A stretch of 41,128 bases of DNA. Source: Pleurocapsa sp. MO_226.B13 (GTDB lineage: Bacteria; Cyanobacteriota; Cyanobacteriia; Cyanobacteriales; Xenococcaceae). Where the stretch lies: positions 1 to 41,128 of the forward strand of contig JASJEI010000046.1 in assembly GCA_030064795.1 (NCBI GenBank), written 5' to 3'. A program made the translations under genes and the position numbers. The number at the start of each line of letters is the position of its first letter. Positions within the stretch are counted from its first letter, which is position 1. The notes below the pieces were generated by a model. The model searched no databases, was not told the origin of the DNA, and saw only the letters and a program-made list of their open reading frames with translations. Positions 14,110 through 23,928 of this stretch are shown here, one piece after another.

Positions 14110-15198
14110 ATGATTTCTAAAACAAAACGAAATTTCTACTTAACTTTTTTATCTGCGCTTTCTTTAGGACTTATCGCGCAAAACATAGATTTTTCTTCTA
14201 ATAAAGCTAATATTTCCCTTCCCGTTGCCAATGCTCAGGATGTAAGCTTATCTGGAGCGGGTGCATCTTTTCCCGCTCCTCTGTATCAACGTTGGTTTTC
14301 CGAATACAACCAGCAAAATCCTGGTACTAGAATCAGCTATCAGTCCGTAGGTAGTGGTGCTGGAGTAAACCAATACTTAGAAGGTACAGTAGACTTTGGT
14401 GCTACCGATGCACCTTTGACAGAAGAAGAACGTCAAACTTTTGAGTCAACTTACGGTCAAGCTCCCGTACAAGTACCAATGATCGCAGGTAGTGTAGTAT
14501 TTGCCTACAATTTACCTGGCGTAGATAGTTTAGAATTGCCCCGCGATCTCTATTGTGGCATTGTTAACGGTGAAATCACTAACTGGAGCGATCCAGCACT
14601 GGCAGAAGCCAACCCCAATGCTGACTTACCTGACACTCCAATCACTTGGATACATCGTTCTGACGGTAGTGGAACTACGTTCTTATTTACCAACCATATT
14701 TCCGCAGCCTGTCCTAATTGGCAGGGAGGCGCGTCCAAAACTGTAGAGTGGCCCACAGGTATTGGTGCAAAAGGTAACGAAGGTATTGCTGCTCAAGTAT
14801 CTCAAACTGAAGGCGGAATTGGCTACGTTGAATATGCCTATGCTACAGAAAACAACATTACCGCAGCAGCGATCGAAAACAAATCGGGTAATATCATCCC
14901 ACCTTCTCCTGAAGCAGCATCTTTAGTATTTGAAGGAGCAACAATTCCCGAAGACTTCGCTCTTACCGTACCCGATCCAGACAACCCCGACGCTTATCCG
15001 ATCGCTGGTTTGACTTGGTTATTACTCTATCCAGAATACGACGATCCTACTAAAGCGCAAGCTTTACAGGGTGTAATTGATTGGGCGTTAAACAACGGTG
15101 ATGAATTCGCTCAAGAACTAGGTTATATTCCTCTACCTCAAGATGTAGAGCAAAGAGTAGTTCAAACTGTCCAAGAAGAAGTTGTTGCTGGTCAATAA
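14110..15198 (+). CDS. pstS: Phosphate-binding protein PstS
   Basis: The periplasmic phosphate-binding protein that delivers phosphate to PstCA. It has 362 residues with a Sec-type signal peptide (basic MISKTKR, then a hydrophobic stretch; likely cleavage after ANA at about residue 43). Ligand-binding motifs are visible: LSGAGASFPAPLYQRWFSEY, YQSVGSGAGVNQYLEGTVDFGATDAP, HRSDGSGTTFLFTNH and GGIGYVEYAYA. The start is the first ATG before the signal peptide. It is divergent from pstCAB and followed by a strong hairpin terminator. Confidence 0.97.
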   Translation: MISKTKRNFYLTFLSALSLGLIAQNIDFSSNKANISLPVANAQDVSLSGAGASFPAPLYQRWFSEYNQQNPGTRISYQSVGSGAGVNQYLEGTVDFGATDAPLTEEERQTFESTYGQAPVQVPMIAGSVVFAYNLPGVDSLELPRDLYCGIVNGEITNWSDPALAEANPNADLPDTPITWIHRSDGSGTTFLFTNHISAACPNWQGGASKTVEWPTGIGAKGNEGIAAQVSQTEGGIGYVEYAYATENNITAAAIENKSGNIIPPSPEAASLVFEGATIPEDFALTVPDPDNPDAYPIAGLTWLLLYPEYDDPTKAQALQGVIDWALNNGDEFAQELGYIPLPQDVEQRVVQTVQEEVVAGQ

Positions 15199-17028: not shown

Positions 17029-17778
17029 TTAAATAGGCATAGCATCAGAAATATTAATATCTCTGATGGGTTGTTTGGTCAAACAATGCCAATGACAAGT
17101 AAAAAGATCTGGTTGTTGAGTTTTAAGAGTTATTATAGCGGGTGCAGCGGGAAACGGCCATAATTTATCGAACACAATTTCACCATTGTACAAACTAAAC
17201 TGAAGTAGGTAAGTAGCTGGTGGTGCATCTAAAGAATCTAGTAGCCGAGCTGCTAAGCTATGAAGCGATTTACGCTGACGGTTGGGTATAACTACAGGCT
17301 GCTCGTAAGAATTAGGCATTGGCCCTTCGCCGATAATTTCGGCATAGATTGGCTTGTCCGTTAAAATTATTGGCAACCATAAATGACCCAACCAAGAATC
17401 GCCTACGCTAGTTTTAAATCCTAAATTTTTTTCTACCCATCTTCTTCTGGCATTAACATCTTTGCAAGCGGAATAGATTTCTTTTTGAGGAAAATCAAAA
17501 TATTCTGGTAACTGAATTGTCAAGGGACAATAGATTGTTTCTTTGTCTTTACGGCTTATTTTGAGATTTCTTGAGTGCTTAGACCAAAGAGTTGCAGCAG
17601 AAATTATTTCGGTAGTTGTTGATGGTGCAGAGTATTTTTCAATACTACGTTGCAGAGCTTCAACCATTTTTTGGGTTACTGGCGATGCAGAAATGAGTTC
17701 TCCTCGATCGCTAACTTCTGCATTAATAATAATTACAACTTTTTCCATTCCCCTTCCATAATTATGAGTTTTTGCCAT
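17029..17778 (-). CDS. Unrecognised 249-residue protein
   Basis: I do not recognise this family. The protein is soluble-looking with mixed alpha/beta character, no signal peptide and no membrane helix. It opens with a beta strand (KVVIIINAEVSDRGELISAS), has a KISRKDKETIYCPLTIQLPEY segment, a tryptophan-rich GDSWLGHLWLPII segment, and ends TCHWHCLTKQPIRDINISDAMPI with a Cys-His-Trp-His-Cys cluster that could bind metal. Two starts are possible: ATG 17778, used here, and ATG 17748 (MEKVVIII), which is preceded by GGAAGGGG but at very short spacing. It is monocistronic: the VanZ-like gene lies 306 bp away past a hairpin repeat. Confidence 0.6.
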   Translation of the reverse strand: MAKTHNYGRGMEKVVIIINAEVSDRGELISASPVTQKMVEALQRSIEKYSAPSTTTEIISAATLWSKHSRNLKISRKDKETIYCPLTIQLPEYFDFPQKEIYSACKDVNARRRWVEKNLGFKTSVGDSWLGHLWLPIILTDKPIYAEIIGEGPMPNSYEQPVVIPNRQRKSLHSLAARLLDSLDAPPATYLLQFSLYNGEIVFDKLWPFPAAPAIITLKTQQPDLFTCHWHCLTKQPIRDINISDAMPI

Positions 17779-18671: not shown

Positions 18672-19958
18672 ATGGAACTACTAGAGTATCAGGCTAAAGA
18701 ATTATTTAAAATGGTAGGTATTCCTATTTTACCTTCTCAGACTATTAAGGATTCTAGAAAAATCAAGCAGTTGCAAATACCATATCCCGTGGTCTTAAAG
18801 TCTCAAGTAAGATCGGGAGGCAGAGGAAAAGCAGGCGGGGTACGTTTTGTCGCTAATACCATTGATGCGATCGCTGCTGCCCGGACTATCTTTAATCTTT
18901 CTATACTAGGAGAATACCCAGAAGTCATTTTGGCAGAAGCTCATTACAACACAGAGAGGGAATTTTTCTTGGCGATAGTTTTGGACTACGATCTGCAATG
19001 CCCAGTTTTATTAGGGTCAGCATACGGAGGCATGAATGTCAATTCTTTGTTGGCAAATTTACAACAGGTGGTAGTCGGTCGAGATTTTTCCTTGTTTTTT
19101 GCCCGTCGTTTAGCTGCCAGTATGGGTTTATCGGGAGAGTTAATTTGCTCTGTGAGTGAGATTATTGCCAAAATGTATCGCTTGTTTGAAGAAAGAGACT
19201 TGGATTTAATTGAAATTAACCCTTTAGGGGTGAATACTAAAGGAGAATTGATGGCACTCGATGGCAAAATTACAATTAACGATCGCGCTTTGGCAAGACA
19301 ACCAATTGTTAAAAGCTTAAATTTTTCGGAATACCAAAAACAAAATAATAATTCTTTAGGAGAAATTACAGATAATCTTAATAAAGTTGGTTGGCATTGG
19401 TTAGATTGGCGCAATCAAAGAGGTAAAATTGCCATAATTTGTAATAGTTTTGATTTGGCTGTATTGACTTGGGATTTACTCAGTCAAAATAAAGTTACTC
19501 CTGCTTGTGGTGTGGTAATTGACAATCATTTTACTCAGGAACAAAATAACGATCGGCTATATCAAGAGCGGTTCGGGCAGATTTTGACTGAATTAGAATC
19601 AATCGAGGGACTAAAAGCGATTTTGGTTAATATTTGGGAAACTGAAGCAGTAAGCAAGGAAATTGTGCAAACTATCGCTCAATACCTTCAATCTAGTTCC
19701 AAATCAACTTTAGCTTCTAAATCAGAATCAATAGACCGCGATCGAGTCGTCGAGTCCAATCTCAAAAACTCCTCCAGTCTTCAGCAGTCTCAGTCTAATG
19801 TTGCCCGACAACCGCAATTAAAATTTGTTTTAAGGTTGTTGAATCAAGATAGTGATTCCGAAGCTGATCTGAGTTGCCAGTTTGAAGAAAGATTGTGTGT
19901 GTCTAATAATTTAGAAACGGCAATCTCCAAAGCGATCGCAGTAGTTAAGTCTAGTTAA
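18672..19958 (+). CDS. SucC-like protein (succinyl-CoA synthetase beta-subunit paralogue, motifs eroded)
   Basis: A 428-residue homologue of the ADP-forming succinyl-CoA synthetase beta subunit. The N-terminal ATP-grasp half is well kept: MELLEYQAKELFKMVGIPI, SGGRGKAGGVRFV (about 48-60), LIEINPLGVNTKGELMALDGK (about 180-200). The C-terminal ligase half is not. The glycine motif normally NGAGLAM-TMD reads CNSFDLAVLTWD, the DVGGGA motif is absent, and NIFGGI reads NIWETE. A Ser-rich low-complexity insert follows (about 340-375). With sucD-like downstream (171-bp gap, same strand) it forms a pair. If the motifs are required as in known enzymes, succinyl-CoA synthesis is unlikely. Confidence 0.8.
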   Translation: MELLEYQAKELFKMVGIPILPSQTIKDSRKIKQLQIPYPVVLKSQVRSGGRGKAGGVRFVANTIDAIAAARTIFNLSILGEYPEVILAEAHYNTEREFFLAIVLDYDLQCPVLLGSAYGGMNVNSLLANLQQVVVGRDFSLFFARRLAASMGLSGELICSVSEIIAKMYRLFEERDLDLIEINPLGVNTKGELMALDGKITINDRALARQPIVKSLNFSEYQKQNNNSLGEITDNLNKVGWHWLDWRNQRGKIAIICNSFDLAVLTWDLLSQNKVTPACGVVIDNHFTQEQNNDRLYQERFGQILTELESIEGLKAILVNIWETEAVSKEIVQTIAQYLQSSSKSTLASKSESIDRDRVVESNLKNSSSLQQSQSNVARQPQLKFVLRLLNQDSDSEADLSCQFEERLCVSNNLETAISKAIAVVKSS

Positions 19959-20129
19959 AAGAGTTCTGGGTAAAATCTGACCACAAAAGTAATAGACCCT
20001 ATACTGTAGCTTAAAGCAATAGATTACCATTCTAATTTCGCTCGCGCTAGTATTGAAGATCTACTTGCTTGCCTTCGACCTGTTAGCAATTATTATTCCG
20101 ATTATTTACCAGCAAATTTTTCTAATTTT

Positions 20130-21026
20130 ATGAATTGGTCGTCTTCTAATAAAGTCATTATCCAAGGAATTACCGCGTCTGAGTCTGCTTTTTATGCCGT
20201 GCAAATGAAAGCATATGGTACTGAAATTGTGGCAGGAGTAAGTCCAGGACAGGGAGGGACCAAGGTAGAAGATATCCCCGTGTTTGATTTAGTCGAACAG
20301 GTGTTGAGCGTAGTAGAGAAAATAGATACTAGCTTGATTTTTGTTCATCCTTATCAGGTTCTAGATGCCACTAAAGAAGCGATCGCAGCAGGCATTAAAC
20401 AAGTAATTGTTTTGACTCCCAATGTTCCTCCCCAAGACACCATTAAACTGATCGAATGTGCTGAAGCCAGTAACACGATTCTTTTAGGGCCTGGTAGTCA
20501 TGGAATTGTGATTCCCGATCGGGTTTGGCTGGGTAAGCTACAACCCCAGTTTTATCAGCCAGGAAAAGCTGGTCTGATAACCACTAGCGAATATCTCTCT
20601 TATGAGGTAGCAGCAGAGTTAAATCGGGCAAATTTGGGACAATCAATGGTGGTAAGTCTGGGCAACGATCGCATTATGGGTTCTAGTTTATCCCAGTGGT
20701 TGACGATTCTGAATCAAGACCCGAAGACAGAGGCAATTATTTATATCGGACAAAGAATTGGTATGACCGACGAGATCGTCACTTATTGTCAAAATAATAG
20801 TTGTGACAAGCCAATTATCGTTTATCTTGCCGGATTAAAAACACCACAAGAAAGAATATTTCGGGATGCGGTAACGATTATTAGCAATCATTTATCCGCA
20901 TCAATTCCCGCAGTTAATCAAAGGCGAAATACCAACAATAGATTAAAAAAAGCGGGAATCGAAGTAGCCAAAAGACCTAGCGAAATCCCGTTGATTTTAT
21001 CAAGAATATTTCAAATTAAAAACTAG
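20130..21026 (+). CDS. SucD-like protein (succinyl-CoA synthetase alpha-subunit paralogue lacking the phosphohistidine)
   Basis: A 298-residue homologue of the succinyl-CoA synthetase alpha subunit by overall layout: KVIIQGITA, MKAYGTEIVAGVSPGQGGTKVEDIPVFD, TEAIIYIGQ, KPIIVYLAGLKTP. Key residues differ from the active enzyme. The region around the phosphohistidine (R-MGHAGAI-IS) reads R-IFRDAVT-IIS, so His246 of E. coli is missing. The partner Glu208 motif GEIGG reads GQRIG, the CoA-site PNCPG reads PGSHG, SRSGTLTYE reads TTSEYLSYE, and GGDP reads GNDR. It is the partner of the SucC-like gene just upstream. A non-catalytic or re-purposed CoA-binding role is inferred. Confidence 0.82.
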   Translation: MNWSSSNKVIIQGITASESAFYAVQMKAYGTEIVAGVSPGQGGTKVEDIPVFDLVEQVLSVVEKIDTSLIFVHPYQVLDATKEAIAAGIKQVIVLTPNVPPQDTIKLIECAEASNTILLGPGSHGIVIPDRVWLGKLQPQFYQPGKAGLITTSEYLSYEVAAELNRANLGQSMVVSLGNDRIMGSSLSQWLTILNQDPKTEAIIYIGQRIGMTDEIVTYCQNNSCDKPIIVYLAGLKTPQERIFRDAVTIISNHLSASIPAVNQRRNTNNRLKKAGIEVAKRPSEIPLILSRIFQIKN

Positions 21027-21276: not shown

Positions 21277-22410
21277 TTAATATAAACTACTTTCAACTGA
21301 ATTATTAACAGCTAAATCGACTTGTTCTTGAGAACCAACTATTAAATCAGAATTATCTAATCCTTCCCCGCCCAAGTTTTCGACCGGAGAACCACCATAA
21401 AGATCTATATTCTCAATCATATAGTCAAGTGTAATAATTTCATTTTGATCTGTCAGTATGACGTTTGAAGGAAAATTTATTAGGGTTAGATTGCTATTAT
21501 CTTCTGGGGAGGTAATACTACGAGCATCAAAATCTTCATCATCTAAATCCCCGACGACGGTAACTTCTTGACCGACTCCTAAGTCTAAATCTCCCCCACT
21601 CTCCAACCAGTCATAAGCATCAACTAAAACCTCTCCTGTCGGATCTTGTAGAGTAAATTCATCATCAGATACACTAGTTACCGTACCAGAAATGGTTTGA
21701 ATCCGATCGTCTTCTGGAATTAAATCGCTAATATTAGTAACTGTTTGCAAGCTACCATCGTTTCCAGGTAGTGGAGAGGGTTGAGAAGTACTATCATCGT
21801 TTATCGGGACTGGAGAAGGTTGAGAAGCATTATCTTCCAAGGCAATGCCATAAGCATCAAAATCTTCATCATCTAAATCCCCGACTACGGTAACTTCTTG
21901 ACCTATGCCTATTCCTAAGTCTATACCTCCCTGACTCTCCTCCAAGTCATAAACATCAACTAAAACCTCTCCTGTTGCATCTTGTAGAACAAACTCATCA
22001 TCAGATACACTAGTTACCGTGCCAGAGATGATTTGAATCCGATCGTCTTCTGGAATTAAATCGCTAATATTAGTAACTGTCTGCAAGCTATTATCGTTTA
22101 TCGGTACTGGAGAGGGTTGAGAAGTACCATCATCGTTTATCGGTACTGGAGAAGGTTGAGAAGCATTGTCTTGCAAGGTAACACTACGAGCATCAAAATC
22201 TTCATCATCTAAATCCCCGACTACAGTAACTTGTTGACCTACACCTAAGTCTAAATTTCCCCCACTCTCCTCCAAGTCATAAACATCAACTAAAACTTCT
22301 CCTGTCGCATCCTGTAGAACAAACTCATCATCAGAGACACTGACTACCGTGCCAGAAATAGTTTGAATATTATCATCCCCTGGAATTAAATCGCTAATTG
22401 AAGTTATCAT
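21277..22410 (-). CDS. Acidic protein with three tandem OB-fold-like repeats (YgiW/BOF-like)
   Basis: The start is ATG 22410: GGAGGA lies six bases upstream, giving 377 residues. A longer frame upstream has no support. Three repeats of about 80 residues each contain ISDLIP-DD-IQ-ISGTV-SVSDDEF-LQD-TGEVLVD and VGQ-VTVVGDLDDEDFDAR. This resembles the bacterial OB-fold (BOF/YgiW-YdeI) family of small stress proteins. Linkers hold SQPSPVPIND units. Roughly the last 80 residues (SNLTLINFPSNVILTDQ to the end) are a different region with a TLDYMIENIDLYGG segment. The protein is very acidic and Asp-rich, which suggests calcium binding or surface location. There is no N-terminal signal peptide, so export, if any, would be by a type I route. 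Confidence 0.75.
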   Translation of the reverse strand: MITSISDLIPGDDNIQTISGTVVSVSDDEFVLQDATGEVLVDVYDLEESGGNLDLGVGQQVTVVGDLDDEDFDARSVTLQDNASQPSPVPINDDGTSQPSPVPINDNSLQTVTNISDLIPEDDRIQIISGTVTSVSDDEFVLQDATGEVLVDVYDLEESQGGIDLGIGIGQEVTVVGDLDDEDFDAYGIALEDNASQPSPVPINDDSTSQPSPLPGNDGSLQTVTNISDLIPEDDRIQTISGTVTSVSDDEFTLQDPTGEVLVDAYDWLESGGDLDLGVGQEVTVVGDLDDEDFDARSITSPEDNSNLTLINFPSNVILTDQNEIITLDYMIENIDLYGGSPVENLGGEGLDNSDLIVGSQEQVDLAVNNSVESSLY

Positions 22411-22578
22411 CGTCTTTCCTCCGAAAACTATTTGGAACAACAATGGCAGAATGCCAATTTGAGATAGCTTGCTGTCTGCCTTGGATTGGTTACAAATTGA
22501 ATTTAGCGAAAGATAATGACCACAAAATGACCACAAAAATTCGATGAAAATCTCGTTCTTAGAGGAGGTTATTTAATA

Positions 22579-23448: not shown

Positions 23449-23928
23449 CTAATGTTTGTGATACTTTTGGTACAGATCTTGGGCAATATTTGCCGAAACT
23501 AAATGATCGATCGCTCCACCAAATTGAGCGATTTCTTTCACTGTACTGCTGCTGAGAAAACTATACTCTTTATTTGTAGCTAAAAAGACAGTTTCTAGCT
23601 CCTGATTGAGAGTTTTATTGGTATGAGCCATTTGTAATTCTTTTTCAAAGTCGGATAAAACTCTCAAGCCTCTTAATAGAACTCCTGCATTGTGTAATTT
23701 GGCATATTCGACGGTTAGCCCGACAAAACTATCTACTTCTACATTATCAAGATGCTGGGTACATTTAGTAATTTGTTTCAATCTGCGATCGACGGTAAAT
23801 AAAGGCTGCTTGCTAGGATTAGAAAGAACAGCAACAATAACGCGCTCGAACAGTTTGGCTCCTCTTTCGATGATATCAATATGTCCTAGAGTAATCGGAT
23901 CGAAACTGCCTGGATAAATAGCAATCAT
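23449..23928 (-). CDS. coaD: Phosphopantetheine adenylyltransferase
   Basis: Transfers AMP from ATP to 4'-phosphopantetheine, making dephospho-CoA, the fourth step of coenzyme A synthesis. The 159-residue length is typical. The nucleotidyltransferase motif [17 protein letters not shown] (residues 7-23) carries the catalytic Tx[23 protein letters not shown] and the C-terminal [13 protein letters not shown] are the other family signatures. The ATG at 23928 leads straight into [11 protein letters not shown]. It lies 28 bp downstream of the AI-2E-type permease gene on the same strand, so the two are probably co-transcribed. Confidence 0.97.

Follow-up and report, generated by a model that had tools for sequence, protein, structure and literature searches.

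The window, by which we mean the whole stretch of 41,128 nucleotides analysed here (positions 1 to 41,128 of contig JASJEI010000046.1 of Pleurocapsa sp. MO_226.B13, assembly GCA_030064795.1), carries two intact genes whose products are, by sequence, homologues of the two subunits of succinyl-CoA synthetase (SCS): a beta-like SucC homologue of 428 amino acids (18672..19958, + strand) and an alpha-like SucD homologue of 298 amino acids (20130..21026, + strand). The beta-like protein keeps its ATP-grasp half and has diverged in its C-terminal ligase half. The glycine loop of the ATP-grasp, GGRGKAGG (residues 49-56; 18816..18839, +), is canonical, the lysine of the site (Lys43) is kept, and so are Asn183 (in INPL) and Asp197 (in ALDGK), which together span 19218..19262 (+) and correspond to the Mg-nucleotide positions of canonical SucC. 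The C-terminal half (residues 240-428; 19389..19955, +) is variable, and its NGAGL, DVGGGA, NIFGGI and GTN motifs are gone.

The alpha-like protein has lost the catalytic residues of SucD. Asp246 stands at the place of the phospho-histidine of the MGHAGA loop, inside a stretch that substitutes for that loop (residues 237-263; 20838..20918, +), and Gln208 (20751..20753, +) stands at the place of the partner Glu of GEIGG. The CoA loop reads SPGQGG where the canonical protein has TPGKGG, the lysine being replaced by glutamine (20241..20258, +), PGSHG is found where PNCPG is canonical (20490..20504, +), and TTSEYLSYE where SRSGTLTYE is canonical (20580..20606, +). Within the substitute loop A247, T249, L255, S256, S258 and P260 are conserved, and its pLDDT is below 50 when alpha is modelled alone. 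An initial annotation had listed these losses in alpha and, in beta, the contrast between a retained ATP-grasp half and missing NGAGL, DVGGGA and NIFGGI motifs; several separate alignments of alpha and the alignments of beta agree with it on every motif, and the loss of the catalytic residues is confirmed. Chance or misalignment as the cause of the missing His and Glu is ruled out by the separate alignments and by cyanobacterial controls that keep the histidine.

The fold of alpha is of the SucD type, according to a structure model and a fold search; the model of beta is poor (pLDDT 60), too poor for a fold search. With SCS of E. coli (1jkj) and T. aquaticus (3ufx) the pair shares the fold, the pairing of the genes, the ATP-grasp and the CoA-type Rossmann half, but it lacks the phospho-histidine, the partner Glu, the CoA-loop Lys and the C-terminal motifs of beta, and it falls below the NCBIfam curated cut-offs (171 of 376 and 210 of 353 bits), as do cyanobacterial alphas that keep the histidine (best, 320 bits). 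ATP-citrate lyase and citryl-CoA synthetase share the superfamily fold, with lower similarity than SCS; these enzymes use a phospho-histidine, which is absent from the window alpha. The FdrA/AllF family (PRK06091), a SucD-like protein of a different reaction, puts the SucD-like fold to another use, but the window alpha scores only 21.9 of its 433-bit cut-off.

Distribution of the histidine loss

The initial annotation had treated the pair as an isolated case, and in this it was mistaken: the loss of His and Glu is a family-wide state. The histidine is kept in none of the 120 closest alphas of the window (the best 120 of 698 matches), where its place is taken by Asp in 113 and by Asn in the other 7. 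It is likewise kept in none of the best 120 of 1902 matches of a profile of Nostoc-type and Synechocystis-type sequences, in which Gln stands at the place in 114; Nostoc, Anabaena, Calothrix, Cylindrospermum and Nodularia are named among these 120, and several of them carry the annotation succinate--CoA ligase. Our literature searches, with most subscription papers outside their reach, returned no publication describing a cyanobacterial SucD that lacks the histidine.

The phylum was sampled with 386 genomes; psbA was matched in 186 of them, in 159 over the cut-off. A SucD-like match was present in 143 of the 386, as a single copy except in five genomes with a weak second match. Among the 186 psbA-bearing genomes 109 have an alpha and 77 have no match; 28 of the 109 keep both His and Glu, so that a ligase may persist in some of its lineages, and 81 are without the His, 77 of these being without the Glu as well. 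Six of the 81 (L188, L191, L194-L197) are very divergent, with no canonical motif left, an uncertain His place and the beta gene elsewhere in the genome. An alpha is present in 34 of the 200 psbA-less genomes, and His and Glu are kept in all seven of those read. No alpha has His without Glu (0/42); the statistics of this co-loss rest on only three to four independent events, and consequently no test of His-Glu coupling can reach significance. The CoA-loop Lys is rare in alphas of either kind, at 2 of the 28 that keep the His and 7 of the 104 that do not.

In the genome family nearest to the window, 26 of 27 genomes have an alpha match and one has none; of the 23 newly matched genomes, 20 were read. 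A group of near relatives (L119, L121, L122, L126, L130 and L136) reads FGDTET where the His would be and SQVGG where the Glu would be. One genome (G406, loci L265 and L268) has an alpha that matches as two pieces and contains a stop, either a broken copy or an assembly error. In a plasmid collection 118 records match the window alpha, all below 60% identity.

Descent and selection

A tree was built from 84 alpha plus beta rows with the catalytic columns removed; it was made by a quick method, and the composition of some rows is uneven. Its rows were drawn from 146 alphas, 129 of which have a beta within the stretch read, and were then thinned at 80% identity; this restriction to thinned alphas with a nearby beta excluded the six very divergent alphas. 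The 72 oxygenic rows form one clade (support 100) adjoining the intact SucCD found in members of the phylum that lack psbA, so that a tree with both subunits, as proposed with the initial annotation, places the oxygenic pair as one cyanobacterial branch beside intact SucCD. To account for the distribution of the histidine, this tree requires four or more changes of state. One of them falls on the 40-row group to which the window belongs (support 99), a second on a 17-row group carrying Nostoc-type motifs (support 100), and two concern single rows.

Both subunits are under purifying selection. Median dN/dS values (NG86) of alpha are 0.107 in 471 His-less pairs and 0.104 in 30 His-keeping pairs, with values up to 0.78 in single pairs; those of beta are 0.153 (187 pairs) and 0.156 (25 pairs), respectively. 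The pairs share sequences and are consequently not independent. In the window's clade, where dS is near saturation, dN/dS is 0.05 for the ATP-grasp half of beta (46 of 91 pairs unsaturated), 0.29 for the C half of beta (42 of 91), 0.15 for the stretch replacing the His loop (64 of 91) and 0.15 for alpha. Invariant columns of beta number 37 of 60 in residues 1-60 and 31 of 60 in residues 61-120. Furthermore, a beta was found for all 132 cyanobacterial alphas read: upstream on the same strand for 116 of them, at a median gap of 84 bases, and unlinked, elsewhere in the genome, in the remaining 16 of 16 genomes. The suggestion that the pair is not simply decaying is upheld by this selection (alpha about 0.11 and beta about 0.15, far from the pseudogene value of 1), by the constant presence of beta and by the conservation of new motifs in place of the old ones. 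That the genes are slowly decaying pseudogenes, as the eroded catalytic and CoA motifs, the six psbA-bearing genomes with unrecognisable alpha motifs and the alpha in two pieces might suggest, is contradicted by dN/dS of about 0.1 and opposed by the retention of beta, the conserved new motifs and the position of the losses at the base of the 40-row and 17-row clades, and can hardly be the case.

Pathway context and gene neighbourhood

No canonical copy appears to stand behind the pair. A SucD model matched in 28 of 28 genomes and exceeded its cut-off in none of them, while 10 of 14 controls were over it. The backup sucD whose search had been proposed was looked for with this model, for SucD only, and none of the 28 genomes has a second SucD-sized protein; the further matches were open reading frames of 889-977 amino acids or a fragment of the same hit. 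One beta each was found in the 17 genomes checked.

The supply of succinyl-CoA was compared in 55 genomes with an alpha, 30 of them oxygenic (28 psbA-tested, the other two classed as cyanobacteria from their records) and 25 psbA-less, out of the 34 psbA-less genomes in which an alpha is present. The 2-oxoglutarate dehydrogenase E1 model was over its cut-off in 0/30 oxygenic and 7/25 psbA-less genomes, and a model of the 2-oxoacid:acceptor oxidoreductase superfamily, which is not specific for 2-oxoglutarate, in 0/30 and 22/25; either supplier model was over its cut-off in none of the 30 against all 25. The ligase residues are thus eroded where neither type of succinyl-CoA supplier is found, and yet 28 of 109 genomes keep them. 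Two published papers describe cyanobacteria as being without 2-oxoglutarate dehydrogenase and using OgdA/SsaD instead (PMC7133116, PMC5160925).

The commonest neighbour cluster besides the pair itself lies on the opposite strand and occurs at 46 of 146 loci; 45 of these 46 are His-less. In the window a gene for a protein of 249 amino acids (17029..17778, - strand) is transcribed divergently from the beta gene; it lies beside the pair in 20 of the 24 nearest-family loci, the window included, and in one of the four loci without it (L200) the contig ends there. This protein has no convincing match in Pfam or the PDB. Other neighbours are less constant. A coaD-like gene for CoA synthesis, recognised by eye (23449-23928, -), clusters only with L273 and L276. 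The product of 21277-22536 (-) contains three similar copies of a unit resembling ISGTVxSVSDDEFxLQDxTGEVLVDVYD, which looks OB-like by eye, and has no counterpart among the neighbours at the other loci, and a PstS-like phosphate-binding protein, also recognised by eye (14110-15198, +), lies upstream of the pair and is absent from the other loci.

Possible function of the pair

A residue critical for SCS is lost and the pair is still selected, and evolution is therefore probably protecting another job. We consider that the pair is very probably no longer a ligase and, on balance, that it is a pseudoenzyme complex derived from SCS with a regulatory role, reporting or relaying nucleotide/CoA or carbon status. 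Sensing of a nucleotide or metabolite would be its most likely role, to judge from the retention of the ATP-grasp half and of part of the CoA-type domain and from the published phenotype of a deletion in a genus whose six sampled genomes are without the His at its place. Of the changed function put forward in the initial annotation, the loss of the phospho-His relay chemistry stands, while the regulatory or sensing part is what we infer. The pair is descended, by vertical inheritance, from the SCS of the cell itself. Among oxygenic cyanobacteria, which presumably make no succinyl-CoA from 2-oxoglutarate, the ligase reaction would have become useless; the phospho-His and partner Glu were lost at least four times, while selection on both subunits continued. 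Binding of Mg-ATP/ADP by the ATP-grasp half of beta may persist, as may that of a ligand by the CoA-type domain of alpha, and the pair would signal to a partner in central carbon metabolism instead of making succinyl-CoA, the re-made loop 237-263 being a candidate for a new contact or switch.

The best precedent for sensing by an SCS-like part may be found, by analogy, in the Pat/PatZ lysine acetyltransferases, in which the acyl-CoA-synthetase-like part is regulatory. Pat is one long chain that includes the acetyltransferase domain. The likeness lies in a part resembling NDP-forming acyl-CoA synthetases in a non-ligase role (PDB 9isq, 'Protein acetyltransferase'); the window pair differs in consisting of two separate SCS-type subunits with no acetyltransferase domain by Pfam.

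Other ATP-grasp ligases operate without a phospho-histidine, and the pair might be an enzyme with changed chemistry, whose ATP-grasp half would phosphorylate a carboxylate with no relay and which would use a new acceptor in place of CoA or succinate. That half is indeed the most constrained part of beta, in its invariant columns as in its dN/dS of 0.05, the window has Lys43 and Asn183/Asp197, and 51 of 92 His-less betas have the Asn/Asp pair. In the other 41 of 92, however, the Mg-binding Asp, which an ATP-using ligase would be expected to keep, is replaced by Asn; these betas may no longer bind nucleotide, which counts against the sensing reading as well. DVGGGA and NIFGGI are altered in every cyanobacterial row of the beta alignment (NGAGL is kept in several His-keeping rows), and no recurrent biosynthetic neighbour was recognised by eye around the pair. 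We regard this chemistry as unlikely.

Rather improbable is a structural or chaperone-like scaffold that binds no small molecule and holds a partner enzyme of a carbon pathway. The replaced loop is conserved yet of low pLDDT in alpha alone, as expected of a partner-binding segment, and a GatB-SucD contact model exists (PDB 9a6e, met in the fold search), but conservation is highest in the nucleotide half. We find it highly unlikely that the pair has remained a working succinyl-CoA synthetase with Asp246, a histidine displaced by one residue or some other residue relaying the phosphoryl group. Asp is common at the His place among the closest alphas (113 of the best 120), and some His-less alphas have a histidine close by, one residue ahead of the place in 10 of 98 and three residues ahead in 14 of 98 (the six very divergent alphas are left out of both counts), but these nearby histidines are off the aligned place and inconstant within groups. 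The Glu is kept in none of the ten, although a shifted His may still serve in them. Among psbA-bearing genomes the partner Glu is gone in 77 of 81, and Gln occupies the His place in 114 of the 120 Nostoc-type matches, Asn in other alphas; neither Gln nor Asn is known as a phosphoryl carrier.

The laboratory model genera share the loss. Picosynechococcus lacks His and Glu at their places in 6 of 6 genomes, congeners of PCC 7002 and not that strain itself; PCC 7117 and PCC 7003 were recognised by a contig identical to their plasmids over the compared stretch. The His shifted by one, present in 5 of the 6, is Tyr in PCC 7117, at odds with a shifted relay. In PCC 7002, according to the published study, strains deleted for sucCD failed to grow at 2% CO2; a single sucCD deletion lowered succinate and malate to about 60% in the light and 40% in the dark (PMC5160925). 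Its authors took the phenotype as lost SCS activity, a reading that the lowered succinate fits as well. A quadruple mutant from which no succinate was expected had 2.0-fold wild-type succinate in the light, a value that the discussion calls comparable (PMC5160925). As far as these reported values go, the loss of a regulator could fit both the lower succinate and the succinate of the quadruple mutant, and the loss of a ligase fits the lower succinate. It is possible, if somewhat doubtful, that a TCA-cycle enzyme became, more than once in oxygenic cyanobacteria, a carbon- or energy-status sensor governing high-CO2 acclimation, having ceased catalysis but retained its nucleotide and acyl-CoA pockets; such a sensor would explain why the sucCD deletion of PCC 7002 fails at 2% CO2.

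Many cyanobacteria, including these model genera, thus keep an annotated SCS pair without its catalytic histidine. One review holds that SucC/SucD of Synechocystis 'probably catalyses' the succinyl-CoA reaction (PMC7133116), the legend of a TCA figure includes SucCD (PMC9855186), a proteome study places SucCD in carbon flow (PMC9175036), and another review describes SCS as absent from cyanobacteria (PMC11546870). If a regulatory pair is what these genes encode, the annotation would be mistaken for 81 of the 109 genomes in the sample that have both psbA and the pair, the disagreement among these papers would be resolved, and the role of SucCD in the absence of 2-oxoglutarate dehydrogenase could be tested in laboratory strains, starting from the published high-CO2 phenotype. 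Synechocystis lacks His and Glu at their places in 5 of 5 genomes, congeners of PCC 6803 and not that strain itself, PCC 7338 being identified by a contig identical to its plasmid over 12 kb. Three of the Synechocystis loci (L147, L153 and L185) have no beta within the stretch read around alpha, and the separate locus tags of PCC 6803, sll1557 and sll1023, as given in PMC8385029, also suggest unlinked genes.
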